IMG/VR virus record: IMGVR_UViG_3300046477_000451
Coordinates: 1 to 55,123 of that record
DNA: 55,123 nucleotides
Direction: 5' to 3' (one strand)
Source: a virus
A program made the position numbers and the translations under genes. Below, one piece after another: positions 2,503 to 50,060 of this stretch; the first letter of the stretch is position 1; every line of letters starts with the position of its first letter. The notes under the pieces are model-generated. The model was not told the DNA's origin. It saw nothing but the letters and a program-made list of their open reading frames with translations, and ran no database searches.

Positions 2503-2973
2503 ATGAGCACACTCGCCAGCACCATCGACGACCAGTTCGCCGCCCTCGGTGAGCAGTACTACCCCGGCTCGACGCGCCCCCTGGTACGTCACCCCAACCG
2601 GCTTAATACCGAGGCCGCCCAGTCGGCGTCCGACCCCGGAGCATGGGACGCCAAGCCCCGCAAGTACGTCGTGGCCGGAGTCGAGACGGCGTTCTTCACC
2701 GTCGGCGACCTCGCCAAGGCGCTGGGACGGCAGCCCGTGACCATCCGGAAGTGGGAGCGCGAGGGAGTCATCCCCAAGTCCACCTACCAGTCGCCGGGCA
2801 AGGACGGGGACGTACGCGGCCGACGCCGCCTGTACACCCGCGAGCAGGTCGAGGGCATCGTCCGCATCGCCTACGAGGAAGGCGTCCTCGTCTCCCACCA
2901 GAAGCCGATCAAGGACACCCAGTTCAGCGCCCGCGTCATCGCGCTCTTCAAGGCCCTGGCGGGCGACGAGTGA
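2503..2973 (+). CDS. MerR-like helix-turn-helix protein
   Basis: This 156-residue protein has an N-terminal extension of about 60 residues and then a MerR/excisionase-type winged HTH: FTVGDLAKALGRQPVTIRKWEREGVIPKS, followed by the wing and RRRLYTREQVEGIVRIAYEEG. It should bind DNA, either as a regulator or as an origin-associated protein; the replication neighbours fit the second. The extension contains RLNTEAA, encoded by a copy of the repeated CTTAATACC motif at 2602-2610, outside the conserved fold. ATG follows GGAGCC. Confidence 0.75.
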   Translation: MSTLASTIDDQFAALGEQYYPGSTRPLVRHPNRLNTEAAQSASDPGAWDAKPRKYVVAGVETAFFTVGDLAKALGRQPVTIRKWEREGVIPKSTYQSPGKDGDVRGRRRLYTREQVEGIVRIAYEEGVLVSHQKPIKDTQFSARVIALFKALAGDE

Positions 2974-3206
2974 GGATCGTCAAGAGCCAGAAGCACCACG
3001 TGTCCATGGGCAACTTCGAGTGGGTGGAGTTCGGCTACGAGGTCGACATCTCCACCGACGACTTCCCCAAGGCGCGCACGCTCGACGACCTGGACAAGGT
3101 CGCGACCGACCAGATCGGCAAGGCCCTCGCGGCCGACATCGAGGAAGCCCGGCTGAACACGGGCGAAGCGTCCTCGTACATCCATCTCTACCAGCAGGAG
3201 AACTGA
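2970..3206 (+). CDS. Hypothetical protein
   Basis: A GTG start overlaps the preceding stop (GTGA), giving 78 residues. The protein is acidic with a likely beta-hairpin (FEWVEFGYEVDIS) followed by a helix (LDDLDKVATDQIGKALAADIEEA). No family is recognised. It is coupled on both sides, with the ssDNA-binding protein starting directly after its stop, which suggests co-expression. An internal ATG at 3006 is an alternative start. Confidence 0.65.
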   Translation: MRIVKSQKHHVSMGNFEWVEFGYEVDISTDDFPKARTLDDLDKVATDQIGKALAADIEEARLNTGEASSYIHLYQQEN

Positions 3207-4022
3207 ATGCCCCGCACCCTTACCCGCCGCCGCACCGCCCGCGACACCGAGGCGTACTCCCCGGCCGACGAGCCGGAAGAGGAGAAGGGCTACGAGGAGG
3301 AAGAGGACGAGCGTCCGGCCCGTGGCTCCCGCCGTGGCTCGCGCCGCCAGTCGCTTAATACCGAGGAGGCCGACACCTCCCGACGCTCGCGCCGCGCCTC
3401 CCGTGACGAGGACGACGACGAGGACGACGAGCCCGCGCCGAAGGTCGGCGGCCGTGGCTGGGGGTCGTACGAGAAGACCAAGCAGGCGTCCTCCGGCTTC
3501 CCGGACAACTTCAAGGCGGGCACCGAGTCCGTGATCGTGAAGTTCCTGGACGAGGAGCCGTTCCTGGTCTTCCTCCAGCACTGGATCGAGCGCTCCGGCA
3601 AGAAGTCCTTCACCTGCCTGGAGAGCAAGTGCCCGCTGTGCGACGACGCGGGTGACAAGCCCAGCCAGCAGGTCTCCTTCAACGTCATCGACTTCACCGA
3701 CCCCGACGACCCGCAGATCAAGGTCTGGCAGGTCGGCCCGATGGTCGCGGACATCCTGAAGAACTTCTCCAAGGACAAGAAGACGGCCCCGATCAACCGG
3801 GACGACCTGTACTTCTCCGTCCGCAAGGAGACCAAGAACCGCAAGACCAACTACTACATCACGCCGATCAAGGAGCGTGACCTCCTCGACGACTGGGACA
3901 TCGAGCCCCTGAGCGAGGAGGACCTGGAGGAGTTCGACGCCAAGGCGTACGACGAGGACATCCTCCAGGTGACCCGCCGCACCGAACTCAAGGGCATCGT
4001 CCGGGAGATCCTGAACGACTAG
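3207..4022 (+). CDS. Zinc-containing single-stranded DNA-binding protein (T4 gp32-like)
   Basis: The protein has 271 residues. The first 90 are disordered, with alternating Glu/Asp and Arg/Ser blocks. A conserved-looking core begins near GGRGWGSYEKTKQ and carries C137LESKCPLC, a zinc-knuckle arrangement seen in gp32-like phage SSBs, then beta-rich sequence to about residue 225 and an acidic tail (SEEDLEEFDAKAYDEDI). It would coat ssDNA at forks and sits next to the DNA polymerase. The disordered region holds SLNTEE from a copy of the 9-mer at 3354. The acidic tract at the N-terminus as well as the C-terminus is unusual. Confidence 0.7.
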   Translation: MPRTLTRRRTARDTEAYSPADEPEEEKGYEEEEDERPARGSRRGSRRQSLNTEEADTSRRSRRASRDEDDDEDDEPAPKVGGRGWGSYEKTKQASSGFPDNFKAGTESVIVKFLDEEPFLVFLQHWIERSGKKSFTCLESKCPLCDDAGDKPSQQVSFNVIDFTDPDDPQIKVWQVGPMVADILKNFSKDKKTAPINRDDLYFSVRKETKNRKTNYYITPIKERDLLDDWDIEPLSEEDLEEFDAKAYDEDILQVTRRTELKGIVREILND

Positions 4023-4100: not shown

Positions 4101-6080
4101 GTGAAGATCCGCAACTCCGTCATCCTCACCCCCGACCGACTTAATACCGTGGTCGAGCGCTTCATGGAGCGTCCGGCCTTCTCCTTCGACATCGAGACCT
4201 TCGGCGCCAACCGAAACGTCCCGACGCAGAACGTCGCCAACTGGCTCTCGCTGGCCGCCGACGGCATGGCCTACGCCATCCCCTTCGGCCACCCCAACGG
4301 CGACGTCCTGCTGAGCAGGGCCACCAAGAAGAAGAACCGGCTCACTGGGAAGTTTGACGCCATCCCGGCCGTCTACGACGCCCCGCCGGAGCAGATGCTC
4401 CCCAGCGAGGTGTTCTCCATCCTCAAGCCGCTGTTCTTCGCCGAAGACAAGATCAAGATCGCGCATAACGCCACGTTCGACCTGATCTCCACGGCGAAGT
4501 ACTGGGGCGAGATCTGCCCGCCGGAGTACAGCGACACCATCGTCCTTCAGTGGCTCCTCGACGAGAACATGAAGCAAAAGGGCCTGAAGGAGTTGATCAA
4601 GCGCTACTACAAGGTCGACTACGACACCGAGAACGTCGGCAAGTGCGTCGAGGCCCACCCCTTCTCCAAGGTCGCGCACTACGCGTACATGGACGCGAAG
4701 TACACGTGGCTGCTGTGGAAGCGGTACCAGCGGCAGATCCAGGAGCAGAACCTGACCCACGTCAGGCGCCTGGAGGAAGACGTCCTGGGTGTGCTGCTCG
4801 ACATGGGCATCACCGGGGCGCCGGTCGACGAGGCTGCGATGCGCGAGCTGGTGACGGACATGTCCGCCCGGCTGGTCGACATCGAGGCGGACATCTACCG
4901 GGCCGCAGGCAAGCAGTTCAACCTCAACGCTCCGGCGCAGAAGGCCGAGGTGCTGTACTCCCCCAAGAGCGAGGGTGGCCAGGGCCTCAAGCCGATGAAG
5001 CCCACCGACGGCGGGAAGAAGAAGCGCGACGCGGGCCAGGCGCTGGAGTGGAAGGACTACTCCACCGACTCCGACAGCCTGGAGAAGCACGAGAGCAACA
5101 AGGTCGTCAAGAAGCTCCTGGAGTACGCGGAAGTCAGCAAGCTGCTCGACTACCCCATCGCGTACCTCGGAGTGGAGGGCGACCCGAAGAAGCCCTGCCG
5201 GATCTTCGACGGCCGGATCCACGCCGACTTCGTCCAGTACGGAACGGTGACCGGACGGTTCTCCTGCCGAGAACCCAACCTCCAGAACATCCCCCGGCCC
5301 GACACCGAACTCGGTAAGAAGATCCGTGGCCTGTTCATCGCGCCGCCCGGCTACAAGCTGGTCGTCGCGGACTACGGGCAGATCGAACTCGTCGTGCTCG
5401 CGCACTTCATCGGTCGTGGCGACCTCTACAAGGGGTTCCACAACGGAGTCGACCCGCACTCGGCGACGGCCGCCGCGCTCATGGGCGTGGACCCGCAGGA
5501 GTTCATGCGGCGGGTCAAGGAGGGCGACCGAACCTGCATCGACTTCCGTCAGGTCGCCAAGGGCATCAACTTCGCCGTCGTGTACGGCGCGGGCCCCGAC
5601 AAGGTCGCCTCGATGGCAGGCATCACCGTGAAGGAAGCCAAGCGCTTCATGGAGATGCACCAGAAGATGTTCCCGGAGGTCTATGCCTTCAAGGAGCAGG
5701 TCATCCGGGTCTGCCGGTCGCGGCGCCCCCCGCACATCCGCACCCTGCTCGGCCGCAAGCGGCGCCTGCCGCTCATCCTCAGCCAGAACAACGGCCTGCG
5801 GATGGGTGCCGAGCGCCAGGCGGTGAACTCCCTCATCCAGGGGAGCGCGGCCGACCTGATCAAGTTGGCCATGATCCGGCTGAACAGCGCCCTGCCGGAC
5901 GACATGCGCCTGATCCTCTCCGTGCACGACGAACTCGTGACGCTCGCGCCGGAGGACCGGGCCGAGGAATGCGCCGCGCTGGTGAAGGAAGCCATGCTCG
6001 GCGAAGGAATCCAGAAACTGCTCCGCGTCCCGCTCTCGTCGGACGTGAAAATCGTGGACCGCTGGTCGGAGGCAAAGTAA
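4101..6080 (+). CDS. polA: Family A DNA polymerase with 3'-5' exonuclease
   Basis: This 659-residue polymerase starts GTG behind GGAG. The exonuclease domain shows SFDIETFG (Exo I), IAHNATFDL (Exo II) and a YMDAKYT (Exo III) context, so proofreading is probably active. The polymerase domain has motif A VADYGQIELVVLAHF near residue 425, motif B around RQVAKGINFAVVYGAG (about 485-500) and motif C LSVHDELV near 608. No 5'-3' exonuclease domain is present. It should be the phage replicative polymerase. The 9-mer at 4140 encodes RLNT at residues 13-16, before the exonuclease core. Confidence 0.95.
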   Translation: MKIRNSVILTPDRLNTVVERFMERPAFSFDIETFGANRNVPTQNVANWLSLAADGMAYAIPFGHPNGDVLLSRATKKKNRLTGKFDAIPAVYDAPPEQMLPSEVFSILKPLFFAEDKIKIAHNATFDLISTAKYWGEICPPEYSDTIVLQWLLDENMKQKGLKELIKRYYKVDYDTENVGKCVEAHPFSKVAHYAYMDAKYTWLLWKRYQRQIQEQNLTHVRRLEEDVLGVLLDMGITGAPVDEAAMRELVTDMSARLVDIEADIYRAAGKQFNLNAPAQKAEVLYSPKSEGGQGLKPMKPTDGGKKKRDAGQALEWKDYSTDSDSLEKHESNKVVKKLLEYAEVSKLLDYPIAYLGVEGDPKKPCRIFDGRIHADFVQYGTVTGRFSCREPNLQNIPRPDTELGKKIRGLFIAPPGYKLVVADYGQIELVVLAHFIGRGDLYKGFHNGVDPHSATAAALMGVDPQEFMRRVKEGDRTCIDFRQVAKGINFAVVYGAGPDKVASMAGITVKEAKRFMEMHQKMFPEVYAFKEQVIRVCRSRRPPHIRTLLGRKRRLPLILSQNNGLRMGAERQAVNSLIQGSAADLIKLAMIRLNSALPDDMRLILSVHDELVTLAPEDRAEECAALVKEAMLGEGIQKLLRVPLSSDVKIVDRWSEAK

Positions 6081-6548
6081 ATGGGAATCTTCAGCAGGAA
6101 GAGGGACGACGAGTTCCCCGAGGAACTTAATACCGAGGAGGAAGACCTCCAGGTCGACCTCTACACTCCGCAAATGCTGACCAAGCGGCTGCTCTGGGAC
6201 ATTGTCCCGTGCGGTGAGGTCGAGGCGCTGATCCCGCTCATGAACCTCACTCCGGACAGCCCGGAAGTCTCCGAAATGGAGCACCAGGCCAGCCACGACC
6301 GGATAGACCAACTCACACCGCTGAGGGAAATGCTAGCGCTGCTCATCCCGCTAGTTTCTGGCATTACTGCCTCGGCTATGCTGGTTAACTCCGGCAATTC
6401 AGCGGACGCGGATACCGCAGCAGTTCTTCAGCGGCATCATTCCGTAGTCGTCCGCGCCGGAGTGGTGGCGATCATCGCCAATCTCCTCGACATGGGAATC
6501 ATCAGTTACGCGGATGGAGTGCAGTTCGGTGAGCAACTTCTGGGCTAA
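6081..6548 (+). CDS. Hypothetical protein with hydrophobic helices
   Basis: ATG directly follows the polymerase stop. The 155-residue protein has a charged N-terminus, then helices around residues 40-75, a hydrophobic stretch (LALLIPLVSGITASAMLV) and another (VVRAGVVAIIANLLDMGI). It could be helical bundle or membrane-associated. Codons in its second half are less GC-rich than those of its neighbours. The N-terminal ELNTEEED comes from a 9-mer copy at 6126. The function is unknown; translational coupling suggests it works with replication. Confidence 0.75.
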   Translation: MGIFSRKRDDEFPEELNTEEEDLQVDLYTPQMLTKRLLWDIVPCGEVEALIPLMNLTPDSPEVSEMEHQASHDRIDQLTPLREMLALLIPLVSGITASAMLVNSGNSADADTAAVLQRHHSVVVRAGVVAIIANLLDMGIISYADGVQFGEQLLG

Positions 6549-7013: not shown

Positions 7014-8978
7014 ATGGAAACCCTGGTGACTTCCCTGCTCACCCCTGCCGGTGACATCGCCGACCCCTACCGCTCCTTCATCGCCAAGTCGCGATACAGC
7101 AGGTGGATCGAGGACGAGAACCGGCGCGAGACCTGGTCCGAGACCGTCGCCCGCTACGTGACGTTCATGCTGGCCCAGTTGAAGGACAAGCACGACTACA
7201 CCCCCGACCCCACCGTGGTCGACGAGGTCCATGCGGCCATCCTCAACCACGAGGTCATGCCGTCGATGCGCGCGGTCATGACGGCCGGTCCCGCCCTGGA
7301 CCGATCGAACATCGCGGGCTTCAACTGCTCGTACCTCCCGCTGAAGGACGCCCGCGCTCTGGACGAGCTGCTGTACGTCCTGATGAACGGCACTGGGGTC
7401 GGCTACTCGGTCGAGAGGAAGTACACCGACCAGTTGCCTGCCGTCCCCGAGGTCATCGAGTACGACGACCGCGTGTACATCCCCGTCGAGGACTCCAAGG
7501 AGGGCTGGGGCCTGGCCTACCGCGCGCTGCTGACCTCCCTGTGGAACGGCAAGCGCGTCGACTGGGACCTGTCCAAGGTGCGACCGGCTGGCGCACGTCT
7601 TAATACCTTCGGAGGGCGAGCCTCCGGCCCGGGTCCGCTGGACGACCTGTTCACCTTCACCGTCGAGAAGTTCCAGCAGGCCGCCGGGCGGAAGTTCCGT
7701 CCGATCGAGGTCCACGACATCGCATGCAAGATCGCGTCCGTCGTGGTCGTCGGCGGTGTCCGCCGGTCGGCGATGATCTCCCTGTCCGACCTGGACGACC
7801 GCGAGATGGCCGAGGCCAAGAGCGGGGAGTGGTGGGTCGAGCACCCCTACCGCGCCCTGGCGAACAACTCGGCCGTCTACACCGACGGCATGCGCTACGA
7901 GGAATTCCACACCGAGTGGGACTCCCTCGTAGCCAGCGGCTCGGGTGAGCGTGGCATCTTCCACCGTGGCGCAGCGCAGCGTCAGGCGGCGAAGTTCGGG
8001 CGCCGGGAGGAGGACACCGACTACGGGACCAACCCGTGCTCGGAGATCATTCTCCGGCCGTTCTCGTTCTGCAATCTCTCCGAGGTCGTCGTAAGGCCGG
8101 AGGACACCCCCGAGGACCTGTACCGCAAGGTGCGCCTGGCGTCCGTCCTGGGCACCTGGCAGTCGACGCTGACCGACTACCCCTACCTGCGCGAGGAGTG
8201 GCGTAAGAACGCGGAGGAGGAGCGCCTGCTGGGTGTCTCCCTCACCGGGGTCTACGGCAACCGCTGGACCAACGGCACGGTCAATCTGAAGACGACCGAG
8301 GTGCTGCTGGCGGACCTGCGCGGGAGTGTGGTGGAGGCCAACGCGGCCGAGGCTGCCCGCATCGGTATCCCGGCGTCGGCTGCGACCACCTGCGTCAAGC
8401 CGTCCGGCACGGTCTCCCAGTTGGTCGACTGTGAGTCCGGCCTGCACCAGAAGCACGCGAAGTTCTACAAGCGTCGGGTGCGGGTGGACAAGAAGGACCC
8501 GATCGCGTTCGTGCTCATCGACTCGGGCCTGCCCTACGAGGAGGACTCCTACAACTCCGCCGCGTGGGTGTTCACCTTCCCGCAGAAGGCTGGCGAGGAG
8601 GCCCTGGTACGGGACGACGTGAGCGCCATCGAGCACCTGGAACTGTGGCTGGCCTTCCAGAGGCACTGGTGCGAGCACAAGCCGTCGGTGACCATCAGCG
8701 TCCGCGAGCACGAGTGGGAGCAGGTCGGCGAGTGGGTGTGGGAGCACCTGGCCGAGATCTCCGGCGTCTCCTTCCTGCCCTTCAGCGAGCACACGTACGT
8801 CCAGGCGCCGTACGAGGAGATCACGCGGGAGGAGTACGAGGCGCTGGCGGCCACGAAGCACCGCGTGGAGTGGTCGGACCTGGCGTTCTACGAGACCTTC
8901 GACCAGACCGTGGGCTCCAGCACGCTGGCTTGCTCGGCGGACGGCGGCTGCGAGGACGTCGACCTCGTGACCACCTGA
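7014..8978 (+). CDS. nrdJ: Class II (adenosylcobalamin-dependent) ribonucleotide reductase
   Basis: The 654-residue protein matches the monomeric B12-dependent ribonucleotide reductase family, which makes deoxyribonucleotides from ribonucleotides with an adenosylcobalamin radical and needs no oxygen. Visible features are GFNCSYLPL (redox Cys near 105), VLMNGTGVGYSVER, the catalytic NPCSEI (residues 340-345, radical Cys and Glu), and a C-terminal CSADGGC pair that would re-reduce the active site. The 9-mer at 7599 encodes LNT at 196-198 in an Arg/Gly loop (RLNTFGGRASG). ATG at 7014 has a poor ribosome site; GTG at 7026 is possible. Confidence 0.93.
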   Translation: METLVTSLLTPAGDIADPYRSFIAKSRYSRWIEDENRRETWSETVARYVTFMLAQLKDKHDYTPDPTVVDEVHAAILNHEVMPSMRAVMTAGPALDRSNIAGFNCSYLPLKDARALDELLYVLMNGTGVGYSVERKYTDQLPAVPEVIEYDDRVYIPVEDSKEGWGLAYRALLTSLWNGKRVDWDLSKVRPAGARLNTFGGRASGPGPLDDLFTFTVEKFQQAAGRKFRPIEVHDIACKIASVVVVGGVRRSAMISLSDLDDREMAEAKSGEWWVEHPYRALANNSAVYTDGMRYEEFHTEWDSLVASGSGERGIFHRGAAQRQAAKFGRREEDTDYGTNPCSEIILRPFSFCNLSEVVVRPEDTPEDLYRKVRLASVLGTWQSTLTDYPYLREEWRKNAEEERLLGVSLTGVYGNRWTNGTVNLKTTEVLLADLRGSVVEANAAEAARIGIPASAATTCVKPSGTVSQLVDCESGLHQKHAKFYKRRVRVDKKDPIAFVLIDSGLPYEEDSYNSAAWVFTFPQKAGEEALVRDDVSAIEHLELWLAFQRHWCEHKPSVTISVREHEWEQVGEWVWEHLAEISGVSFLPFSEHTYVQAPYEEITREEYEALAATKHRVEWSDLAFYETFDQTVGSSTLACSADGGCEDVDLVTT

Positions 8979-9109: not shown

Positions 9110-10312
9110 ATGTCACTTAATACCAGCGCGGGCGGCCCCGACAAGGAAGCCCTCGCGCTCATCGCAAAGATCAACAAGGAGCACCCGGGCGCGGTCTGTT
9201 TCGCCTCCGAGATGCGCATCCCCAAGCGGTTCACCTCCGGCTCCCTGTCCCTGGACATCGCCCTCGGCGGCGGCTGGCCGGGCAACCAGTGGGTCGAGGT
9301 CATCGGCCGCGAGTCCCACGGCAAGACCGCCATCGTCTACAAGACCCTCGCGGCCAACCAGAAGAAGGACCCGAACTTCACCTGCCTGTGGATCGCCGCA
9401 GAGCACTACGACGTCGACCAGGCAGAAGCCCTCGGCGTCGACAACGAGCGCGTCCTGGTCGTCCCCACCCAGGCCATGGAGTTCGCCTACCAGACCATGC
9501 TCGACTTCGCCGCCAGCCGGTCCGTCGACATGATCGTCCTCGACTCCTACCCGGCACTCATCGCCGACGAAGAGTCCGAGAAGGACATGGACGAGGCCGT
9601 CATGGCGCTCGGTGCCCGCCTCACCGGCAAGTTCTTCCGCAAGAGCGGGGCGGCCACCAAGCGATCCATGACGGACACCGACGACCGGCCCCTGCTCGGC
9701 ATCGTGATCAACCAGTACCGCGACGCCATCGGCAAGTTCTCCCCGCACGGCACCCCGACCACAACTCCCGGTGGAAATGCGAAGAATTACGCGTTCTATA
9801 CCAGGGTCGAGGTCCGGCGCGACGAGTGGATCCAGGAGGCCCGACCGGGCAAGGGCAAGGTCAACGTCGGCCAGGTCATCAAGGTCAAGACGATCAAGAA
9901 CAAGTCGGCCGCCCCGCAGCAGACCGCGACCATCGACTTCTACTTCCGCTCCGCCCCGTTCCTGAACTTCGCTCGCGGTGACTACGACACCGTGAAGGAG
10001 ATCATGATCATGGGCATCCTCTTCGACGTCATCCAGCGCAAGGGCGCCTACTTCCAGATCGACAACGGGGAGTACGACGACAAGGGCAAGCCGGTCCTGC
10101 GCTGGCAGGGCAAGGACCCCATGCTCGACCACGTCCGACAGGACCTGGACCTCCAGGAGTCCCTGTACGAGAAGATCCTCATCGCCTCCAAGAAGGTCGA
10201 CGAGCGGTCCATCTCCGAAGAGGACCTGGACGCCGCCGAGTCGGCCGGAACGAAGAAGGTCAGCCGACGGCCCAAGGCCGAGGACGAGGCGCTTAATACC
10301 GAGGCCGCCTGA
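9110..10312 (+). CDS. recA: RecA-like recombinase
   Basis: The start ATG follows GGAAG by eleven bases and gives 400 residues. The RecA ATPase core shows RFTSGSLSLDIALGGGWPGNQWVEVIGRESHGKTAI, with Walker A GRESHGKT where bacteria have GPESSGKT, then MIVLDSYPAL (Walker B) and VINQYR. It would drive strand exchange and recombination-dependent replication. Both ends carry the 9-mer peptide: MSLNTS at residues 1-6 and ALNTEAA just before the stop, both outside the core. The last 50 residues are charged and look disordered. Confidence 0.93.
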   Translation: MSLNTSAGGPDKEALALIAKINKEHPGAVCFASEMRIPKRFTSGSLSLDIALGGGWPGNQWVEVIGRESHGKTAIVYKTLAANQKKDPNFTCLWIAAEHYDVDQAEALGVDNERVLVVPTQAMEFAYQTMLDFAASRSVDMIVLDSYPALIADEESEKDMDEAVMALGARLTGKFFRKSGAATKRSMTDTDDRPLLGIVINQYRDAIGKFSPHGTPTTTPGGNAKNYAFYTRVEVRRDEWIQEARPGKGKVNVGQVIKVKTIKNKSAAPQQTATIDFYFRSAPFLNFARGDYDTVKEIMIMGILFDVIQRKGAYFQIDNGEYDDKGKPVLRWQGKDPMLDHVRQDLDLQESLYEKILIASKKVDERSISEEDLDAAESAGTKKVSRRPKAEDEALNTEAA

Positions 10313-10524
10313 TGGTGGCCCTGCTCTCCCTCCTGCTGGCCTTCGCGGCCGTCTACATCGTGGTCCTCGGCGCCCGGTACTCCCGGCGCCAGGGCCGCGC
10401 CCACCGCAAGTTCCTGATCCTCGCGAACCTCCTGGAGAAGTCCTATGGCGGACATGCTGAAGAAATCCCAGCGGCAGGAGAGGCGGGGAGCGGCACTTCT
10501 GGGCGGGACGGTGAACGCGGGTAG
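10312..10524 (+). CDS. Small single-pass membrane protein
   Basis: ATG overlaps the recA stop by one base (TGATG). The 70-residue protein has one N-terminal transmembrane helix (LLSLLLAFAAVYIVVLGA) and a basic, then Gly-rich tail. The next gene starts inside it at 10445 in another frame with a good Shine-Dalgarno site, an 80-nt overlap. The function is unknown; a membrane anchor is possible. Confidence 0.6.
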   Translation: MVALLSLLLAFAAVYIVVLGARYSRRQGRAHRKFLILANLLEKSYGGHAEEIPAAGEAGSGTSGRDGERG

Positions 10525-13032: not shown

Positions 13033-13767
13033 ATGTCGCTTAATACCTCGGTCGCTCCGGCGGCCGTCACCTTCCGGTCCTCGATCACCGCGACGCTCGA
13101 CGCGGAGACTGTCGCCGGGTCCGACGCGAAGATCTGCAAGGCCGCTCGCGTCTCCACGGTCGGCACCGCTGCGGCGGAGACCAAGGAAGCCCGTGGCCTG
13201 ATCAACTACCTGATGAAGAACAAGCACGGCTCCCCGTTCGAGCACGCGCAGTTGTCCTTCCTCGTCGAGGCCCCGATCTTCGTCGCCCGCGAGTTCATGA
13301 GGCACAGGGTTGGCTGGAGTTATAACGAAACCAGCGGCAGATACCGGGAGTTGGAGCCGACCTTCTACATGCCTCCGGCGCACCGCCCGCTGGTCCAGGT
13401 CGGCAAGGCGGGGGAGTACCGCTTCGAGCACGGCACCGAGGAGCAGTACCTGTCCGTCGAGCACTCCTTCGGCGTCATCTACCGCGCCGCCTACAGCCAC
13501 TACCAGCAGATGCTGAAGGACGGAGTCGCCCGCGAGGTCGCCCGCAGCGTCCTGCCGGTCGGCACGTACACCTCCTTCTACGCCACCTGCAACCCGCGCT
13601 CGCTGATGCACTTCCTGGGCCTGCGGACGAAGAGTGAGTTCGCCACCTTCCCCTCCTTCCCGCAGGAGGAGATCGAGCGCGTGGCCATGGACATGGAAGC
13701 CGCGTTCGCCGAGCACTTCCCGCTCACCTGGGAAGCGTTCCTCGACAACGGAAGGGTCTGCCCGTGA
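13033..13767 (+). CDS. thyX: Flavin-dependent thymidylate synthase
   Basis: The 244-residue protein shows the ThyX signature RHRVGWSYNETSGRY and the flanking SPFEHAQLSFLVEAPIFVAREFMRH. ThyX makes dTMP from dUMP with FAD and methylene-tetrahydrofolate. It serves the same nucleotide supply as the ribonucleotide reductase and the dNMP kinase in this run. The first ten residues SLNTSVAPAAV lie outside the family core and are nearly identical at DNA level to the start of the gene at 45667. The 9-mer is at 13039, two codons after ATG. The next gene overlaps by GTGA. Confidence 0.95.
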   Translation: MSLNTSVAPAAVTFRSSITATLDAETVAGSDAKICKAARVSTVGTAAAETKEARGLINYLMKNKHGSPFEHAQLSFLVEAPIFVAREFMRHRVGWSYNETSGRYRELEPTFYMPPAHRPLVQVGKAGEYRFEHGTEEQYLSVEHSFGVIYRAAYSHYQQMLKDGVAREVARSVLPVGTYTSFYATCNPRSLMHFLGLRTKSEFATFPSFPQEEIERVAMDMEAAFAEHFPLTWEAFLDNGRVCP

Positions 13768-14275: not shown

Positions 14276-14874
14276 ACACCACCACCGCACCTGTCGACAA
14301 CGACACCGAGATCGTCGAGTCGTGGCTTCCGCAGTACATCGGCCTCCACGGATTCGCCGGGGCCGGTAAGGACGCCGTCGCCAAGATCCTCGCCAACTAC
14401 GGATACACCCGCGTCGCCTTCGCCGACGTCCTGCGCGAGGCCCTGTACGTACTGAACCCGGTCATCCTCTTCCACCCGTACGGCGAGGACCAGCGAGTCC
14501 AGGACCTGGTGGACCGCCACGGCTGGGACGAGGCCAAGCGCCAATACGAGGAGATCCGACGGATGCTCCAGGTCCTGGGCACCGAGGTCGGCCGGGAGAT
14601 GATCGACCAGAACGTGTGGGTCGACTCGGTGTTCAAGAAGTTGGAGGAGGGCAAGAAGTACGTCTTCACCGACGTCCGCTTCGTCAACGAGCACCAGGCG
14701 ATCGACTCCCGCATCGGCCTGCTGGTCAAGATCGACCGTCCCGGCTACGGCCCGGTCAACGCCCACAAGAGCGACAAGGGCCTGCCCGACGAGTGGTTCG
14801 ACGTCCGGATCAACAACGACGGCACGCTGGAGGACCTTAATACGAAGGTCCGCGAGATCCTGCGACTCGCGTGA
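14272..14874 (+). CDS. Deoxynucleoside monophosphate kinase
   Basis: The 200-residue protein starts GTG at GTGA. It has a P-loop GLHGFAGAGKDAVAKILANYGY and a lid/acceptor region YVFTDVRFVNEHQAI, the arrangement of T4 gp1-like dNMP kinases, which phosphorylate dNMPs to dNDPs. It completes a dNTP path with RNR and ThyX. The 9-mer variant at 14836 (ending CG) encodes DLNTKVREILRLA near the C-terminus. Confidence 0.82.
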   Translation: MNTTTAPVDNDTEIVESWLPQYIGLHGFAGAGKDAVAKILANYGYTRVAFADVLREALYVLNPVILFHPYGEDQRVQDLVDRHGWDEAKRQYEEIRRMLQVLGTEVGREMIDQNVWVDSVFKKLEEGKKYVFTDVRFVNEHQAIDSRIGLLVKIDRPGYGPVNAHKSDKGLPDEWFDVRINNDGTLEDLNTKVREILRLA

Positions 14875-15278
14875 CCGCCCCGAAAACCTGCAAGGACTGT
14901 GAGCCCGGGAGCAAACGCCCAGCGCCCAACCCCGGGCCACGGTGCGCCACCCACTGGCGCGAGGAGAAGAAGCGGCGCAGCAAGGCCGCCCACGAGAAGC
15001 GCGTCCAGACCACCTACGGACTCGGCGAAGGCGACTACGCCACCCTGTACGAGGCCCAGGGCGGGAAGTGCGCGATATGCCGACGGGCCACAGGAGCAAC
15101 CCGGCGCCTGTCCGTCGACCATGATCACAAGACGCTGCTCGTGAGAGGGCTTCTCTGCCGACCGTGTAACGACCTCCTGGGCCACGCCCGGGACGACCCG
15201 GAGTTTTTCTCCCGAGCCAAGGGGTACCTCGAAAAGCCACCAGCACAGGAACTAGGTCGCTGGTACGCCCCTGAGTAA
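14871..15278 (+). CDS. Recombination endonuclease VII (HNH family)
   Basis: The 135-residue protein starts GTG at GTGA. YGLGEGDYATLYEAQGGKCAIC, LSVDHDH and VRGLLCRPCNDLLGHARDD reproduce the endonuclease VII domain, with the zinc cysteines and the catalytic DHDH. T4 endonuclease VII resolves branched DNA before packaging. An additional N-terminal CKDCEPGSK...CATHW adds a possible second zinc site. It is the last gene before a terminator. Confidence 0.88.
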   Translation: MTAPKTCKDCEPGSKRPAPNPGPRCATHWREEKKRRSKAAHEKRVQTTYGLGEGDYATLYEAQGGKCAICRRATGATRRLSVDHDHKTLLVRGLLCRPCNDLLGHARDDPEFFSRAKGYLEKPPAQELGRWYAPE

Positions 15279-19042: not shown

Positions 19043-20023
19043 ATGTCCCTCCACGGAGTCGACCTCTCCAACAACAACGACGCCGCGCACATCGCTGCGG
19101 CCATCGCCAGCAAGAACAACGCGTTCATCATCGCCAAGGCGTCCGAGGGCGAGCACACGGGCGACACGAAGCACGCAGGCATCGTCAAAGCGACCCGGGC
19201 GGCGAAGAAGGCCCTGGGCCACTACCACTTCGCCCACCCCACCCAGGACGCGACGACGGAGGCCAAGCACTTCCTGTCCGCTGCGGGCGCCCTGCCCGGT
19301 GAGGTCCTGGCGCTCGACCTGGAGGCTTCCGAAGGCTCCTGGAGCCAGCGTCTGCACTACGCACTGACGTGGCTCGCGTACGTCAAGGCGCAGACCAAGG
19401 CGGCGCCGTTCATCTACACGTACACCTCCTACCTCACCGGCCTGCTCGGTGTGGCTTCGGACGCGCAGAAGAAGGAACTGCGGTCCTACCCGCTGTGGGT
19501 GGCCGACCCGAACAACCCGGCCGGGCACCCGCTGACCGAGGGCTGGTCGACCTGGACCGTGCACCAGTACGGCATCGTCGGCAACGTCGACCAGAACCTG
19601 CTGAACGGGGACCTTAATACCTGGAAGGCCCTGGCCATCCCGGTGAAGGCGGCCCCCAAGCCGACCCCGGCTCCCGCTCCGGCGCCCAAGCCGACCCCCG
19701 CTCCTGCTCCTGCTCCAACCCCTGCGAAGGCGTACACGATGGTGATCTTCGGCGAGAACATCGACTCCATGACCGCTGCGGCGGCCACTGACGCGTTCCA
19801 GCCCAAGGGTGCCGTCGCTACCGGTCGCGTGGACGTCGCGAAGGCTGCTCTGGCTGCTGGTGACGTCGTCGTCGCGGTCGGCGGCCCGGCCAACGTGGCC
19901 CTGGGCTACACGCACGCGAAGTCCGGCACGGTCGCCATCTCCGGCAAGAAGGTCGCCGTCCAGGGCGCCACGGCCGGTGACTCCTACGTGCTGCTCGGCC
20001 GCTACCTGGCCACCGGCAAGTAA
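19043..20023 (+). CDS. GH25 endolysin with C-terminal wall-binding domain
   Basis: The 326-residue protein begins with a GH25 muramidase domain: GVDLSNNN (catalytic region Asp), FIIAKASEGEH, GHYHFAHP, LALDLEAS (catalytic D-x-E) and YPLWVADP...TVHQYG. These enzymes cleave the MurNAc-GlcNAc bond to release progeny. A Pro/Ala linker (KPTPAPAP repeats, about 203-225) leads to a domain of VFGENIDSMTAAAA..FQPKGAVATGRVDVAKAALAAGDVVVAVGGPA, resembling cell-wall-binding repeat 2. There is no signal peptide. The 9-mer at 19613 encodes DLNTWKA at the domain end before the linker. Confidence 0.92.
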   Translation: MSLHGVDLSNNNDAAHIAAAIASKNNAFIIAKASEGEHTGDTKHAGIVKATRAAKKALGHYHFAHPTQDATTEAKHFLSAAGALPGEVLALDLEASEGSWSQRLHYALTWLAYVKAQTKAAPFIYTYTSYLTGLLGVASDAQKKELRSYPLWVADPNNPAGHPLTEGWSTWTVHQYGIVGNVDQNLLNGDLNTWKALAIPVKAAPKPTPAPAPAPKPTPAPAPAPTPAKAYTMVIFGENIDSMTAAAATDAFQPKGAVATGRVDVAKAALAAGDVVVAVGGPANVALGYTHAKSGTVAISGKKVAVQGATAGDSYVLLGRYLATGK

Positions 20024-20630: not shown

Positions 20631-21020
20631 ATGCCCAACGTCCCGATCCTCGGACAGACCAGCAGCGCCGACAAGCCGCTTAATACCGACGACCTCACGC
20701 CCGAGCAGCGTGAGGCACTGGCCAAGATGGCCGAGGAGAACCCGCCCGCCGAGGACGAGATCAGCACCCCCGTCACCACCGCGTTCATCGTCGCCATCGG
20801 GCTGGACGGTGCGGTCGTGGCCACCTCCGACCTCACCCAGCAGTACGCCCCCCGGCGCGGCGCCACCCCCGACGACATCTACGGCGCAGCCTCCGTCGTG
20901 CTGAAGGACCTCCAGGTCATGGAGACGGCCCAGAGGACCCAGCAGGCGATGATGATGATGGGCCAGGCCATGCAGCAGCAGGCCCAGGAGGCCGCCCTCC
21001 GCTCGCGCCTGAAACTCTGA
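20631..21020 (+). CDS. Hypothetical protein with Met/Gln-rich tail
   Basis: ATG follows TTGGAG and gives 129 residues. A globular core ISTPVTTAFIVAIGLDGAVVATSDL...RRGATPDDIYGAASVVLKDL is followed by a helical Met/Gln tail (QQAMMMMGQAMQQQAQE). The 9-mer at 20679 encodes PLNTDDL in the N-terminal extension. It may be a virion or scaffold-like protein, but this is only composition. Confidence 0.65.
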   Translation: MPNVPILGQTSSADKPLNTDDLTPEQREALAKMAEENPPAEDEISTPVTTAFIVAIGLDGAVVATSDLTQQYAPRRGATPDDIYGAASVVLKDLQVMETAQRTQQAMMMMGQAMQQQAQEAALRSRLKL

Positions 21021-43705: not shown

Positions 43706-44035
43706 GTGAAGCGGCTTAATACCTACGCGGCTTCGGCCGCGCTCGCGGGGGCGCTCGTCCTCACCGGCTGTGGGTCGGACCTCGACCACGGCACGATCAC
43801 CGGCAAGCGGTACGTGCCCGAGGACACCTACACGTACATGCAGCCGGTCTACACCACGCAGTGCTCGGGATCGGGTTCGTCGCGGGTCTGCTACTCGACG
43901 ATCTCGATGTACATCCCCGTCTCGCAGACGGACCCGGAGTGCTGGCGCCTCGACCTTCGGGACGGCAAGAAGACCGGGCACGTGTGCGTGTCCAAGTCGG
44001 CCTGGGAGAAGGCCAAGAAGGGCGGTACCTGGTGA
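43706..44035 (+). CDS. Lipoprotein
   Basis: GTG after GAAGGGG gives 109 residues with lipobox LTGC: VKRLNTYAASAALAGALVLTGCGSD. The signal peptide begins with LNT from the 9-mer at 43715. The mature part has four cysteines and a Thr/Tyr-rich stretch. Membrane surface location is likely; role unknown. It overlaps the next gene by GTGA. Confidence 0.75.
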   Translation: MKRLNTYAASAALAGALVLTGCGSDLDHGTITGKRYVPEDTYTYMQPVYTTQCSGSGSSRVCYSTISMYIPVSQTDPECWRLDLRDGKKTGHVCVSKSAWEKAKKGGTW

Positions 44036-44418: not shown

Positions 44419-44621
44419 TGATCAACCGATACCGGGAGCTGTCCCGGCCTGAGACAGAGAGGAGACGGAAGTGGTTCGGCTTAATACCTAACCCGGGTAT
44501 TCGGGTGCCCGGCAGGCGGCGAACCTACCGGGCACCTGTCCCACCACGAGAGGTGTCGTCTCTCCATGGGACTCCCCAAGCCTATCCAGAGCTGGCGCGA
44601 GAACCGCGCGAGCAAGACTGA
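44419..44621 (+). CDS. Alternative frame through the leader, with TTA codon
   Basis: From GTG 44419 the frame runs VINRYRELSRPETERRRKWFGLIPNPGIRV... and ends at 44621 inside the DUF2637-type gene. The 9-mer is read here as GGC TTA ATA, placing a TTA codon, which in Streptomyces needs the bldA tRNA. The ribosome site is directly against GTG. It competes with the six-codon leader explanation. Confidence 0.3.
44471..44491 (+). CDS. Candidate six-codon leader MVRLNT
   Basis: GTG GTT CGG CTT AAT ACC TAA follows GAGAGGAG by six bases. The last three codons are the 9-mer at 44480. A perfect 8-bp hairpin with a GTGCCCGG arm follows within 25 bases, before the DUF2637-type gene. It could be a translated leader whose translation controls the hairpin. 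The alternative is a longer frame through here with a TTA codon (44419-44621). Confidence 0.35.
   Translation: MVRLNT
44502..44532 (+). promoter_or_regulatory. Hairpin between leader and DUF2637-type gene
   Basis: GTGCCCGG pairs with CCGGGCAC around a loop holding GGCGGCG. It lies in the leader before ATG 44566 and could act as an attenuator or ribosome-site switch. Confidence 0.5.
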
Positions 44622-45666: not shown

Positions 45667-46122
45667 ATGACGCTTAATACCTCGGTCGCCCCGGCGGCCG
45701 TAGAGATCACCCTGGACGAGGCGAAGACCCTCCTGGCCCGTGCGGTCGAGGAGCGGGGCGCCGACTACACGTACACGATGCTCACCATCGGCGGGTCGGC
45801 GCTGTGTGCGTACTTCGACCCCGAGACGAAGGCGCCGTCGTGCATCGTCGGCCAGGTGCTGTCGTACAAGGGCATCACCTTCGACGCCATGTCCGCCCAG
45901 GACAAGAACGTCTACGCGTCGGCGGGGACGCTGGTGGACACCAAGTTCATCAAGGCGGACAACGAGACGCGGGCGCTGCTGGAGATCGTGCAGTCCGAGC
46001 AGGACGCGGGTATGTCGTGGGGCCGGGCCGTGGAGGAGGCCCTGGAGACGTACGAGGAGGCTGCCGAGCGCTACGAGGAGGACGGCCGCGCTGACGACCC
46101 GTCCGAGGCGTACTGGTTCTGA
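45667..46122 (+). CDS. Hypothetical protein sharing the thyX 5' cassette
   Basis: The 151-residue protein starts ATG. Its first 12 codons share about 34 bp with thyX, differing at one base (TLNTSVAPAAV versus SLNTSVAPAAV). The rest (ITLDEAKTLLARAVEERGADYTYTMLTIGGSALCAYFDPET...) is an unrelated acidic alpha-beta protein. This makes the start a transferable cassette carrying the 9-mer at 45673. Stop overlaps the next gene by TGATG. Confidence 0.7.
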   Translation: MTLNTSVAPAAVEITLDEAKTLLARAVEERGADYTYTMLTIGGSALCAYFDPETKAPSCIVGQVLSYKGITFDAMSAQDKNVYASAGTLVDTKFIKADNETRALLEIVQSEQDAGMSWGRAVEEALETYEEAAERYEEDGRADDPSEAYWF

Positions 46123-46886: not shown

Positions 46887-46897
46887 CCTGACCTGCG

Positions 46898-46924: not shown

Positions 46925-46999
46925 TGCATGTCCGCGCAACCACTCGAAAGTGTGACCCACGCCATACGGGTTCCCTTGAACAGATTCACGATTACGGGC

Positions 47000-47028: not shown

Positions 47029-47079
47029 TCTCTCTGTCGGGGTAACCCGAAGAACCGCCGCAGAGCCGAGGAGCACCGC

Positions 47080-47484: not shown

Positions 47485-47486
47485 AC

Positions 47487-47714: not shown

Positions 47715-47737
47715 CCCACCACACCCCGGAGGACACC

Positions 47738-48841
47738 TTGACGAACCTGCTCAGCATCATGTCGGCGAGCCTGCTCCAGGACATGCTCGACCAGGGCTAC
47801 GTCCGCAAGCAGAACCACCCCACCGAGCCGCTGACCATCTACAACTACACGAACAAGACCCAGTTCGACGGTCTGTGGAACGACGTCACCGAGCAGACGC
47901 GAGGACTGATCGTCAACAGCCACACCGGGGAGGTCGTCTCCCGGCCGTTCAGGAAGTTCTTCAACTGGGAGCAGGTCCCGCACCTGCACTCGACGCTGCT
48001 CCAGCAGCCGGTCGAGGGGTACATCAAGTGGGACGGCTCCCTGGGCATCCTGTACGGGCTTAATACCGGGGAGCACGCGATAGCGTCGCGTGGCTCCTTC
48101 ACCAGCCCCCAGGCCCAGCACGCCACGAAGGTCCTGCACGAGCGGTACCCGACCTTCGAGCCGATTCTGGGCCTGACCTATCTCTTCGAGATCATCTACC
48201 CGGAGAACCGGATCGTCGTCGACTACAAGGGGCGGGACGACCTGGTCCTGCTCGCGGTCATCGACACCACGACCGGCAAGACGCTGCCGTCCGCTTCCTA
48301 CGACTGGCAGGGCCCGGTGACCCGCCCGCTCTCCTTCCAGACGATGGTCGACGTCCTCGAAGCGATGCGGATTCAGGAGAAGAACCACGAGGGCTTCGTC
48401 GTCCGCTTCCCCTGGAGCGACCGCCGGGTGAAGTTCAAGTACGACGAGTACATCCGCCTGCACCGGATCCTGACGAACGTCTCCACCCTCTCCGTGTGGG
48501 ACGCGCTGGCCAACGGGCAGGGCATCGACTCCTGGATCGACCGCGTGCCGGACGAGTTCTACACGTGGGTTCATCAGCAGGTGCACCGGCTGGAGGGCGA
48601 CTACAAGCGGGCCTACGACGGCATCCAGGACGACTTCGACTGGATCACGCGCCGTCTGCGTCGGCCCGAGGTGGACGTGAAGAAGCGGCGCAAGGAGTTC
48701 GCGCTGCTGGCCCAGGAGACTCCGTACCCGGGCGTCCTGTTCCGTCTCTACGACGGCAAGGACATCACGGCCGACGTCTGGAAGCGGGTCCGGCCGACGT
48801 ACGAGAAGCCGTTCCAGACGCTCTCGGAGGACGCGGCCTGA
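47738..48841 (+). CDS. RNA ligase (T4 Rnl1-like)
   Basis: TTG at 47738 after GGAGGACACC gives 367 residues. KWDGSLGILY carries the lysine nucleotidyltransferase motif I (K97), NHEGFVVRF is motif IV and RVKFKYDEYIRL is motif V. T4 Rnl1 seals broken tRNAs, and this phage also has its kinase-phosphatase and tRNA genes. The 9-mer at 48059 encodes GLNTGEH just after motif I, in the loop leading to the next strand, the copy closest to an active site. ATG 47759 is an alternative start. Confidence 0.85.
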   Translation: MTNLLSIMSASLLQDMLDQGYVRKQNHPTEPLTIYNYTNKTQFDGLWNDVTEQTRGLIVNSHTGEVVSRPFRKFFNWEQVPHLHSTLLQQPVEGYIKWDGSLGILYGLNTGEHAIASRGSFTSPQAQHATKVLHERYPTFEPILGLTYLFEIIYPENRIVVDYKGRDDLVLLAVIDTTTGKTLPSASYDWQGPVTRPLSFQTMVDVLEAMRIQEKNHEGFVVRFPWSDRRVKFKYDEYIRLHRILTNVSTLSVWDALANGQGIDSWIDRVPDEFYTWVHQQVHRLEGDYKRAYDGIQDDFDWITRRLRRPEVDVKKRRKEFALLAQETPYPGVLFRLYDGKDITADVWKRVRPTYEKPFQTLSEDAA

Positions 48842-49140
48842 TGGAGCCCGACGACCTCGGCGGCTGGTTCGAGGCGGCGGAACTGGTGGGCGGGGAACGA
48901 CTCCTCGCCCACCCCCGCAAGGACTGCATCGGCCGCCACTGCTGCGTACACAACCCCTCCGATCACCACATGGCCGACTGGCCCCAGCACTTCCGTATGG
49001 ACCGCGCGCTGATGGAGCGGATGTGCCCCCACGGTGTCGGTCACCCCGACCCGGACGACCTCGACTACAAGCGGCTGATGCAGGGCGTGGACTACCACCC
49101 CTACGAGGGCCTGCACGGCTGCGACGGGTGCTGTCGATGA
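48841..49140 (+). CDS. Small His/Cys-rich protein
   Basis: ATG at TGATG gives 99 residues, rich in His and Cys (CIGRHCCVHNPSDHH, MERMCPHGVGHPDPDD, GLHGCDGCCR). A metal-binding mini-protein is likely. It lies between the RNA ligase and the polynucleotide kinase and overlaps the latter by ATGA, so it may belong to RNA repair. Confidence 0.7.
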   Translation: MEPDDLGGWFEAAELVGGERLLAHPRKDCIGRHCCVHNPSDHHMADWPQHFRMDRALMERMCPHGVGHPDPDDLDYKRLMQGVDYHPYEGLHGCDGCCR

Positions 49141-50060
49141 GCCTGCTGAAGTGCCAGTGCTGCGGACCGAAGAAGACCAAGGAGAAGCCCGTGACGACGC
49201 TGACCATGACCAAGGGCCTGCCGGGCTCGGGCAAGACGACGTGGGCCCGGGAGCAGGTGCTCAAGGCTGTCCCGGGCGGCGCCGTCGTCGTGTGCAAGGA
49301 CGACCTGCGGGCGATGCTGCACGCCGACCGATTCCACGGCAAGCACGAGCGCCAGGTCGTCAAGGCCCGCGACGCGCTGGTGAAGACGTTCCTGCTCCAG
49401 GGCGTCTCCGTGATCGTCGCCGACACCAACCTCAACCCGTTCCACGAGGAGCGGCTGGCGAAGATCGCGGAGGAGGAAGGTGCCCGGTTCTTCGTCAAGG
49501 ACTTCACCGACGTCCCGCTTAATACCTGCGTCCGCCGCGACCTGAAGCGGGAGAAGAGCGTCGGCGAGAAGGTCATCAGGGACATGTACGAGAAGTACCT
49601 GGCCCCGAAGCCCGCCGACCCGCCGGAGTACATCCAGGGCCGCCCTCACGCCGTTCTGGTGGACCTGGACGGGACGCTGGCCAAGATGGCCGACCGCAGT
49701 CCCTTCGACTGGGACCGCGTGGACGAGGACGAGGCACACCAGGACGTCGTCGACCTGGTGAACACGCTGCGGGACGCTGGCGCCGAGATCATCTTCGTCT
49801 CCGGCCGCGACGCGAGGGCCTACAAGAAGACCCGGGCCTGGCTGGTGCAGCACGTGGGGGACTGGACGTCCCTGTCGCCGCTGCTGATGCGCTCCGAGTA
49901 CGACATGCGCAAGGACTCGATCGTGAAGGAGGAGATCTACCGGCAGGAGATCCTGGGCCGGTACAACGTCTGGCTGGTCCTCGACGACCGCAACCAGGTG
50001 GTCGACATGTGGCGCAATCTCGGCTTGCGAGTCCTTCAGGTGGCGCCCGGAAACTTCTGA
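49137..50060 (+). CDS. Polynucleotide kinase-phosphatase (T4 Pnkp-like)
   Basis: ATG at ATGA gives 307 residues. MTKGLPGSGKTTWA is the kinase P-loop (near 27-35) and VLVDLDGTLAKM the HAD phosphatase motif (near 176-180), the T4 order of kinase then phosphatase. It makes ends ligatable: 5' phosphate added, 3' phosphate removed. With the RNA ligase it forms the system T4 uses to repair tRNA cut by host anticodon nucleases. The 9-mer at 49518 encodes PLNTCVR at 128-130, between the domains. Confidence 0.88.
   Translation: MSLLKCQCCGPKKTKEKPVTTLTMTKGLPGSGKTTWAREQVLKAVPGGAVVVCKDDLRAMLHADRFHGKHERQVVKARDALVKTFLLQGVSVIVADTNLNPFHEERLAKIAEEEGARFFVKDFTDVPLNTCVRRDLKREKSVGEKVIRDMYEKYLAPKPADPPEYIQGRPHAVLVDLDGTLAKMADRSPFDWDRVDEDEAHQDVVDLVNTLRDAGAEIIFVSGRDARAYKKTRAWLVQHVGDWTSLSPLLMRSEYDMRKDSIVKEEIYRQEILGRYNVWLVLDDRNQVVDMWRNLGLRVLQVAPGNF

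Follow-up and report, generated by a model that had tools for sequence, protein, structure and literature searches.

What would make a nine-letter word recur on one strand of a viral genome, again and again inside unrelated genes and in a single codon phase? This question is posed by a record of the IMG/VR collection (IMGVR_UViG_3300046477_000451), analysed here over its whole length of 55,123 bases (the window), and by the 9-mer CTTAATACC scattered through it. A reading of the letters without database searches (the sequence-only reading) had counted 24 plus-strand copies, had attributed their codon phase to tolerance, and had proposed selection on the nucleic acid, with sites for RNA processing, recombination, packaging or a protective mark as possible functions. 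We asked what the copies have in common in the window and among its relatives, and which process could read them.

The 9-mer, its codon frame and its clade-specific base

The core CTTAATA occurs 24 times on the plus strand of the window and not once on the minus strand, against an expectation of 0.31 copies for both strands (dinucleotide shuffles) or 0.046 for the plus strand (order-2 Markov model). It heads the list of enriched 7-mers with an enrichment of about 500-fold, the next unrelated 7-mers reaching up to about 16-fold, and overlapping words head the lists of 8- and 9-mers (words with at least eight copies). Exact CTTAATACC accounts for 21 of the 24 copies, the others being CTTAATACG (at 14836), CTTAATATC (22278) and CTTAATATG (24773). 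By our own gene calls, made with a simple in-house caller that misses small genes, plus-strand genes contain 22 of the 24 copies, without exception in frame 0 (that is, CTT-AAT-ACC in the window form); the copy at 26293 is in frame 0 of an open reading frame (ORF; 26191-26574) and that at 44480 in frame 0 of a six-codon ORF (44471-44491) preceded by a ribosome-binding-like site. The coordinates, the frame and the claim of a chance expectation well under one thus held, and the observation proved stronger than the sequence-only reading had reported. In the information profile the 9-mer stands out sharply, accompanied by weak preferences for S, S and G at positions -3 to -1 and by G at nucleotides (nt) 12-13, with little conservation 5' of it. 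No copy is found between 26.3 and 43.7 kb, and a related record (G011) has a similar gap at 72.3-87.6 kb; by our reading both regions hold many small, variable genes, and the gap may merely reflect gene turnover.

Relatives were collected by a polymerase search of IMG/VR (47 loci) and by an alignment search that added further loci. Records with a polymerase 92-96% identical to that of the window are referred to as clade A, and those at 88-90% (G007, G008, G009 and G010, counted in full) together with G018 (84%, without gene calls) as clade C; G012 (69%) serves as outgroup, and G047 is its sister record. Clade-A records carry 24-38 copies of CTTAATACC, nearly all on one strand (plus:minus 24:0, 30:1, 26:0, 24:0 and 37:1), which extends the strand bias to the relatives, and none was found in ten other records of the same count. 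Clade C instead has CTTCATACC (34:1 in G007, 31:0 in G008, 28:1 in G009 and 27:1 in G010), G018 has CTTCATA followed by C or T (33:1), and STTCATAC occurs nine times in G012 and five times in G047, in neither on the minus strand, giving STT-MAT-AYN as the general pattern. At the site of window position 3354, for instance, clade C has CTTCATACC and G012 has GTTCATACC. When sites were mapped by protein alignment between 11 records (99 groups), the fourth base in the 33 groups common to both clades was A in 114 clade-A copies and C in 109 clade-C copies, with no copy bearing the other letter; the motif was lost at eight mapped places in these groups (seven in clade C, one in clade A). The grouping left out five clade-A copies of CTTCATA (three CTTCATAAC, one CTTCATAAA and one CTTCATATT, the last in G003 outside called genes), none of which falls in a shared group with the full motif, so that the 114/109 count is unaffected. 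To judge from these alignments, the element has undergone a clade-wide, concerted change of one base.

Two loci of clade-C type by polymerase, L035 and L036, each hold one CTTAATACC among 14 and 11 copies of CTTCATACC, respectively. This copy (L035:16405-16413 and L036:16405-16413) is in frame 0 at the end of a 447-codon open frame and precedes sequence forming the hairpin of window 10303-10320; it may have come by recombination, or may be an intermediate. Polymerase relatives at 47-65% identity showed no comparably abundant element among 44 loci (clade-C L113 included) and 18 records, STTMATAC occurring 0-4 times in those of the 18 records other than G018 and G047. A few scattered CTTCATA or GTTCATA in L114, L127, L129 and L130, part of them within a long open frame, could be remnants or could have arisen by chance, and a pattern search of a genome collection gave 14 matches with no relative among them. 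As a separate observation, L115 (G032) contains 15 copies of CTTCTAG within 22 kb, most of them read CTT-CTA-G in phase with a long open frame, and without unusual hairpins. A phage tRNA is not required as the driver of the switch between A and C: an extra tRNA with a GTG anticodon is present in the clade-C records G005, G007, G008 and G009, and G010 and G018, also of clade C, gave no match. This GTG (His) tRNA, at L083:9573-9658 on the minus strand (86 nt) and also in G005, G007 and G008, has by our reading a long, class-II-like variable arm.

The codon phase is not explained by tolerance. In clade A the other two frames would indeed require TAA or TTA, and TTA is absent from the genes counted in clades A and C, as if to escape dependence on the rare leucyl tRNA for this codon, which has a role in the host. 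The clade-C core CTTCATA, however, contains no stop in the other two frames, and yet its sense copies in called genes of four clade-C genomes are in frame 0 in 39/39, 38/38, 34/34 and 35/35 cases, with none in the other frames; the in-gene copies of G012 follow suit (8/8). A codon-likelihood test that is independent of gene calls took in 275 plus-strand sites from eight records and assigned 247 to frame 0, the 28 exceptions comprising 22 outside called genes, where the score is set by the flanking genes, one in a called gene in frame 0, and five in G018. Where a clade's own motif falls in genes on the minus strand (G011, G002, G007, G009), it does so within minus-strand genes and in frame 0; of the minus-strand copies in G008 and G010, one (in G010) lies opposite a gene and the others outside called genes. 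Since the outgroup G012 has the C form, an ancestor containing TAA appears unlikely. Many of the intergenic copies lie within short ORFs that possess start signals (see below), which again speaks against mere tolerance.

The letters rather than the residues appear to be selected, in agreement with the sequence-only reading. In the better-scoring genes of four clade-A records, Leu-Asn-Thr is written 18-33 times per record as CTTAATACC vs 1-5 times by other codons, and Leu-His-Thr is likewise seldom written with other codons in clade C. At three groups (G007 80028, 56700 and 81476) clade A writes Leu-His-Thr mostly as CTGCACACC where at least one clade-C genome encodes these residues as CTTCATACC, which argues for selection on the letters. 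Orthologues without the motif often have unrelated residues, as in the polymerase of G012 (CTGGAGGAG). Neither equal numbers of copies on both strands nor a tripeptide conserved in homologues lacking the DNA motif was seen in the material examined.

Downstream hairpin and short upstream open reading frames

A G+C-rich hairpin, absent from control intervals, usually begins about 2 nt 3' of the 9-mer. Like the base switch between the clades, it had escaped the sequence-only reading. The mean folding energy of the 36 nt downstream, compared with that at random codons of the same genome, was -13.8 vs -8.8 kcal/mol in the window (z -7.2), -13.1 vs -8.8 in G011 (z -7.7), -13.3 vs -8.7 in G007 (z -9.3), -12.0 vs -8.8 in G010 (z -5.9) and, for the nine sites of G012, -11.8 vs -9.3 (z only -2.2). 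Against dinucleotide shuffles the mean z just downstream was -1.02 (p 4e-12, n=119, orthologous pairs of both clades counted), compared with -0.07 to -0.16 in three other intervals. Orthologues without the motif are less structured at the same place (52 groups, places with alignment gaps at the site left out; mean difference -3.35, Wilcoxon p 1.1e-5). A strong perfect stem is found at 86 of the 119 sites, and its most frequent start is nt 12 (45/86), which puts the base of the stem 11 nt from the first base of CTT and 5 nt after MAT. A search of the window against Rfam 15 (E<=1) matched no cis-regulatory family to the element; it returned four tRNAs, a c-di-AMP riboswitch and two sub-threshold matches antisense to tRNAs.

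Counting one site per group and clade, 21 fall outside called genes. A ribosome-binding-like site with a start codon at most 14 codons upstream was present in frame 0 in 11 of them and in frames 1 and 2 in none, as opposed to 88 of 1995 random intergenic positions (4.4%). Taken by place, the 11 correspond to about six independent loci, several being the same place in two clades. Short ORFs could be picked for 14 of the 21 sites, the other seven apparently lying in missed or cut genes or having no clear short ORF; 10 of the 14 overlap the next called start by 1, 4 or 14 nt, three end 74-77 nt before it, and one precedes a start 596 nt away. These start signals suggest that the short upstream ORFs are translated. 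The UvsX/RecA gene is instructive in this respect: in clade A the protein itself starts with MSLNT or MPLNT, and in G007 and G010 (clade C) a separate ORF (MRLHTYGGPC and MTLHTCGGCP, respectively) overlaps the UvsX/RecA start codon, which shows the in-gene element of clade A to be a likely equivalent of a coupled upstream ORF in clade C.

A putative ribosome-coupled control element and its alternatives

The frame, the hairpin and the short ORFs together implicate the elongating ribosome. We consider it somewhat better than an even bet (about 55%) that the element is a translation-coupled mRNA control element, composed of an unpaired 9-nt STT-MAT-AYN read in frame and a G+C-rich hairpin about 2 nt later. 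In-frame placement, tracking of the gene strand, a motif-linked hairpin, short upstream ORFs and the clade-wide base switch are the parts that the sequences show directly. A ribosome with CTT in the P site and AAT or CAT in the A site would meet the hairpin at the mRNA entry, and would pause there with a hindered A site, since hairpins this far away, 11 nt from the first base of CTT, obstruct the A site of the ribosome. The paused state or the bared 9-mer would then be recognised by a factor specific for the sequence, different in the two clades and probably encoded by the phage, which would decide whether translation of the gene, or of a coupled downstream gene, continues or stops, or whether the mRNA is cut. 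The switching base is the first base of the A-site codon, and the change between A and C would be the trace of a changed specificity of this putative factor. The effect would most plausibly fall on the gene itself or on a coupled downstream gene. More tentatively, the phage may have built itself a checkpoint at about 40 places of its genome, where a ribosome stopped at one codon pair awaits a lineage-specific factor and where a single letter has re-keyed the lock.

Several observations weigh against a ribosome-coupled element of this kind: (i) 33 of the 119 sites lack a strong perfect stem, and by a test of this kind the window sites 18261, 19613 and 21276 have none either; (ii) the stem changes between relatives without clear support for conserved pairing, changes on both sides keeping the pair in 11 of 24 cells vs 36 of 132 slid controls, and single-side changes in 25 of 148, a smaller share than in the slid controls (56-73 of 156-176), in part owing to the choice of a fully paired reference stem, with 34 comparisons below 60% identity skipped; (iii) G.U changes (19) are not preferred over A.C (29); (iv) the protein discussed next as candidate factor is also found in G032, which has a single STTMATAC; and (v) hindrance of the A site by a hairpin is described as largely independent of codon identity (PMC7282821), so that a pause alone fails to explain the strict 9-mer.

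As to the factor, the largest gap between within-clade and between-clade identity, among proteins with all three values, belongs to a HicA-like protein of 97 residues encoded outside the window at L064:2903-3193 (75% within A, one pair; 73% within C; 38% between), a 14-residue insertion accounting for part of the low between-clade value. HicA mRNA interferases have an alpha-beta-beta-beta-alpha fold akin to double-stranded-RNA-binding domains, with G-[SN]-H, and the 97-residue protein is predicted to have the same order of elements (AlphaFold2 pLDDT 69.5). Foldseek matched it to 1whz, which we take to be a HicA relative (probability 0.90, E 0.17), and to the HicAB complex 6g26 (probability 0.69), the best E among the matches listed being 0.15 and none reaching E<=0.001. 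It matched a PHROG toxin family at E 0.041, no Pfam family at E<=0.1, and no HicA among PDB sequences; we regard it as a weak candidate. Other candidates with such gaps (within A/within C/between) are a protein of 151 residues encoded at L061:348-800 (92/89/68%), the Holliday-junction-resolvase-like protein (96/93/78%) and one of 96 residues (89/81/62%). Scans with PHROGs, Pfam and PADLOC pointed to no obvious factor among the proteins scanned, and gene presence or absence relative to element-less relatives left too many candidates to single one out. A guide RNA was considered and rejected, intergenic 7- and 8-mers complementary to the motif in four clade-A and three clade-C records being mostly the opposite strand of sites plus scattered matches.

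The alternatives differ in what they take the 9-mer to be. Selection on the peptide Leu-Asn/His-Thr, whether as a short linear motif of phage proteins or as a site of their cleavage, would suit the invariable frame of the in-gene copies and the fact that 30 of 99 in-gene positions fall within the first 7 or last 12 codons, but is very improbable where synonymous forms are rare, where letters prevail over residues at the three groups named above, where Leu/Val, Asn/His and Thr/Ile/Met alternatives are all found, and where the upstream ORFs encode peptides of only 6-31 residues. Hardly more probable is a polar site in the DNA (a stoperator-like repressor site, a Chi- or KOPS-like sequence, or a primase, nicking or packaging signal), even though many copies share one orientation and a clade-specific consensus. 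Clade A shows fairly even spacing, the coefficient of variation being 0.51 for the window and 0.62 for G011 (P 0.0013 in both by simulation; spacings below 60 nt and above 9000 nt left out). For the clade-C genome G010 it is 0.75 (P 0.043), and in G007, also of clade C, spacing is not regular (P 0.59). The strict frame, the one-sided hairpin and the intergenic copies in short ORFs count against a DNA site, and in-gene minus-strand copies in minus-strand genes, in frame 0, disfavour polarity of replication or packaging. Recombination, packaging and a protective DNA mark, all proposed by the sequence-only reading, are at odds with copies that track gene strand and codon frame and precede an mRNA hairpin; RNA processing, which it also proposed, stands as possible, best if coupled to translation.

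Two RNA-level alternatives deserve more weight, although each remains doubtful. The element may be a ribosome-independent binding or processing site for a regulator, an RNase or an antitermination complex, with its codon phase a by-product of coding constraints or of a TAA-containing ancestor. Strict nucleotide conservation, the hairpin and the clade-wide switch suit an RNA-binding protein, and the TAA and TTA in the other frames of clade A could account for the phase there; the CTTCATA form of the 69% outgroup makes the ancestor unlikely, however, clade-C sites present in a single genome are also in frame 0 when in called genes, and the extragenic copies belong to short ORFs that possess start signals (11, 0 and 0 in frames 0, 1 and 2; about six independent loci) and are under no obvious protein constraint. 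Slightly less probable still is ribosome-dependent cleavage, in which the hairpin would stall the ribosome while its A site is open, and an endoribonuclease resembling RelE or HicA would cut AAT or CAT, phage mRNAs thereby being down-regulated or recycled, with RNA ligase, polynucleotide kinase and the RlaP-like enzyme providing RNA repair. Cleavage shares all the sequence evidence of the control element that we favour, the clade-divergent HicA-like protein with its weak structural matches would supply a nuclease, and RNA repair genes are present; but G032 has the HicA-like gene and practically no element, the insertion explains part of that protein's divergence, the benefit of cutting needed genes at about 40 sites is hard to see, and HicA is not known to be ribosome dependent. 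Frame 0, gene-strand tracking and the short upstream ORFs, which together disfavour sites of replication, packaging or recombination, fit the translation-coupled control element best.

Features of the window and comparison with known systems

The window encodes a DNA polymerase I, ribonucleotide reductase, UvsX/RecA-like, Holliday-junction-resolvase-like, Cas4-like exonuclease, thymidylate synthase, deoxynucleotide kinase, endolysin, RNA ligase, polynucleotide kinase and RlaP-like nucleotidyltransferase. The Streptomyces phages BRock, Alone3 and pSt2308 are similar in gene set and in part of the gene order, with polymerases about 52% identical to that of the window. BRock is described as a virulent myovirus of 112.5 kb (PMC7453282), so that the window probably covers roughly half a genome. 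The RlaP-like, T4-type RNA ligase and polynucleotide kinase genes lie close together at 46122-50060 and might form an RNA-repair cluster. The coordinates of the elements are given in the table, together with those of a second repeat.

Table. Copies of the element in the window, and positions of the second repeat.
Position (strand)	Composition	Location	Remark
2602-2610, 2611-2630 (+)	9-mer + hairpin 2611-2630	gene 2503-2973, MerR/HTH-like (Pfam MerR_1)	site common to clade C
3354..3380 (+)	9-mer + local hairpin GGAGG/CCTCC 3365-3380	gene 3207-4022	40-nt fold favours longer alternative
4140..4178 (+)	9-mer + hairpin 4151-4178	codons 14-16 of DNA polymerase I gene 4101-6080	
6126..6150 (+)	9-mer + local hairpin 6137-6150	gene 6081-6548	40-nt fold gives longer alternative
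7599..7627 (+)	9-mer + hairpin 7609-7627	ribonucleotide reductase gene 7014-8978	
9116..9159 (+)	9-mer + hairpin 9125-9159	codon 3, UvsX/RecA-like gene 9110-10312	
10292..10320 (+)	9-mer + hairpin 10303-10320	spans UvsX/RecA-like stop codon	
10736..10762 (+)	9-mer + hairpin 10747-10762	Holliday-junction-resolvase-like gene 10445-10789	
13039..13066 (+)	9-mer + hairpin 13049-13066	codon 3, thymidylate synthase (ThyX-like) gene 13033-13767	
14836..14876 (+)	CTTAATACG + hairpin 14847-14876	end of deoxynucleoside monophosphate kinase gene 14272-14874	
18261-18269, 18282-18290 (+)	tandem; second copy with hairpin 18293-18306	end of gene 17061-18323	first copy without strong hairpin of its own
19613..19658 (+)	9-mer + interrupted stem 19622-19658	endolysin gene 19043-20023	no perfect local stem
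20679..20715 (+)	9-mer + 8-bp hairpin 20693-20715	ORF 20532-21020	
21276..21296 (+)	9-mer	gene 21108-22100	weak downstream stem only
22278..22317 (+)	CTTAATATC + 11-bp hairpin 22289-22317	gene 22101-22949	
24254..24302 (+)	9-mer + interrupted stem 24266-24302	gene 23735-24466	
24773..24813 (+)	CTTAATATG + hairpin 24783-24813	queuine tRNA-ribosyltransferase-like gene 24494-26032	
26293..26339 (+)	9-mer + stem 26308-26339	frame 0 of ORF 26191-26574	
43715..43741 (+)	9-mer + CGCGGC-TTCG-GCCGCG hairpin 43726-43741	codon 4 of gene 43706-44035	
44471..44512 (+)	element 44480-44488 + hairpin 44493-44512	6-codon upstream ORF GTG-GTT-CGG-CTT-AAT-ACC-TAA 44471-44491	74 nt before gene at 44566
45673..45700 (+)	9-mer + hairpin 45683-45700	codon 3 of gene 45667-46122	
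48059..48098 (+)	9-mer + hairpin 48069-48098	RNA ligase gene 47630-48841	
49518..49566 (+)	9-mer + weaker interrupted stem 49533-49566	polynucleotide kinase gene 49023-50060	
1285, 9070, 26653, 30058, 37162, 42516, 42530, 43669, 43682, 47006, 52037, 54894	second repeat, AGCCGTAA/TTACGGCT		

The second repeat has 12 window copies, all outside called genes and, in the 11 that have one, 24-274 nt before the next called gene; they are possibly start-associated or operator sites. The c-di-AMP (ydaO/yuaA) riboswitch mentioned above lies at 52503-52643 (+; 58.3 bits), between phage tRNAs and directly 5' of a gene (52643-53266) with tail-, transglycosylase- and endolysin-like matches. A tyrosine recombinase/integrase-like gene (L059:2452-3519; PF00589, E 4.7e-16) is found near the left end of G011 and has orthologues in clade C.

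Akin to a programmed frameshift signal, in which a stimulatory hairpin lies 5-9 nt after the A-site codon, the element has an in-frame heptamer, a spacer of about 5 nt after the A-site codon (the most frequent stem start) and a hairpin at the ribosomal mRNA entry. Frameshifting itself was rejected, CTT-AAT and CTT-CAT not being slippery and allowing only poor tRNA re-pairing in -1 or +1, with the clade-A -1 frame meeting TAA; moreover, a second-frame product would leave tens of copies in unrelated genes unexplained, no systematic search of alternative frames having been made. ErmCL, TnaC and SecM exemplify upstream-ORF attenuators and arrest-peptide leaders, which the element resembles in combining a short ORF, placed ahead of a gene or overlapping its start, with a putative pause site and a hairpin after it. 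Short ORFs of this kind accompany 14 of the 21 intergenic copies examined, but most copies are inside genes; one element at about 40 sites, conserved in its nucleotides, sets it apart, and no conserved arrest-type nascent peptide was found in a region 5' of the 9-mer that is little conserved. The lambda-type nut sites, boxA and boxB, likewise combine a linear box with a following mRNA hairpin, but are neither frame dependent nor scattered through dozens of genes. The stoperators of mycobacteriophages, 13-mer repressor sites in the DNA of promoters and short intergenic spaces, are described as numbering more than 20 asymmetric, transcription-oriented sites per genome with diverse recognition among related phages (PMC9283540), much as here; the element differs in its RNA-type hairpin and codon frame, and in that most copies lie in genes rather than in promoters or intergenic DNA. 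Finally, translational bypass of the T4 gene 60 type calls for matching take-off and landing codons and for a dispensable coding gap. In gene 60 a codon is described as acting with an adjacent hairpin that blocks the A site (PMC7282821). The hairpin in the ribonucleotide reductase gene, however, encodes FGGRASGP, which is kept in clades A and C, so that bypassing there would delete part of the protein.

No described counterpart of the element was found in Rfam or in the open-licence literature, and the evidence points to an undescribed way of controlling translation. If the translation-coupled element is what we suppose, these soil phages would possess a genome-wide translational control code that is read in frame and evolves in concert, on a scale comparable to that of the stoperators and yet acting on elongating ribosomes. 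It would provide a phased tag for pausing or cleavage that is ready for use, would amount to a natural experiment in which a factor co-evolves with dozens of its sites, and would allow one to test how phages keep their own mRNAs apart from those of the host.

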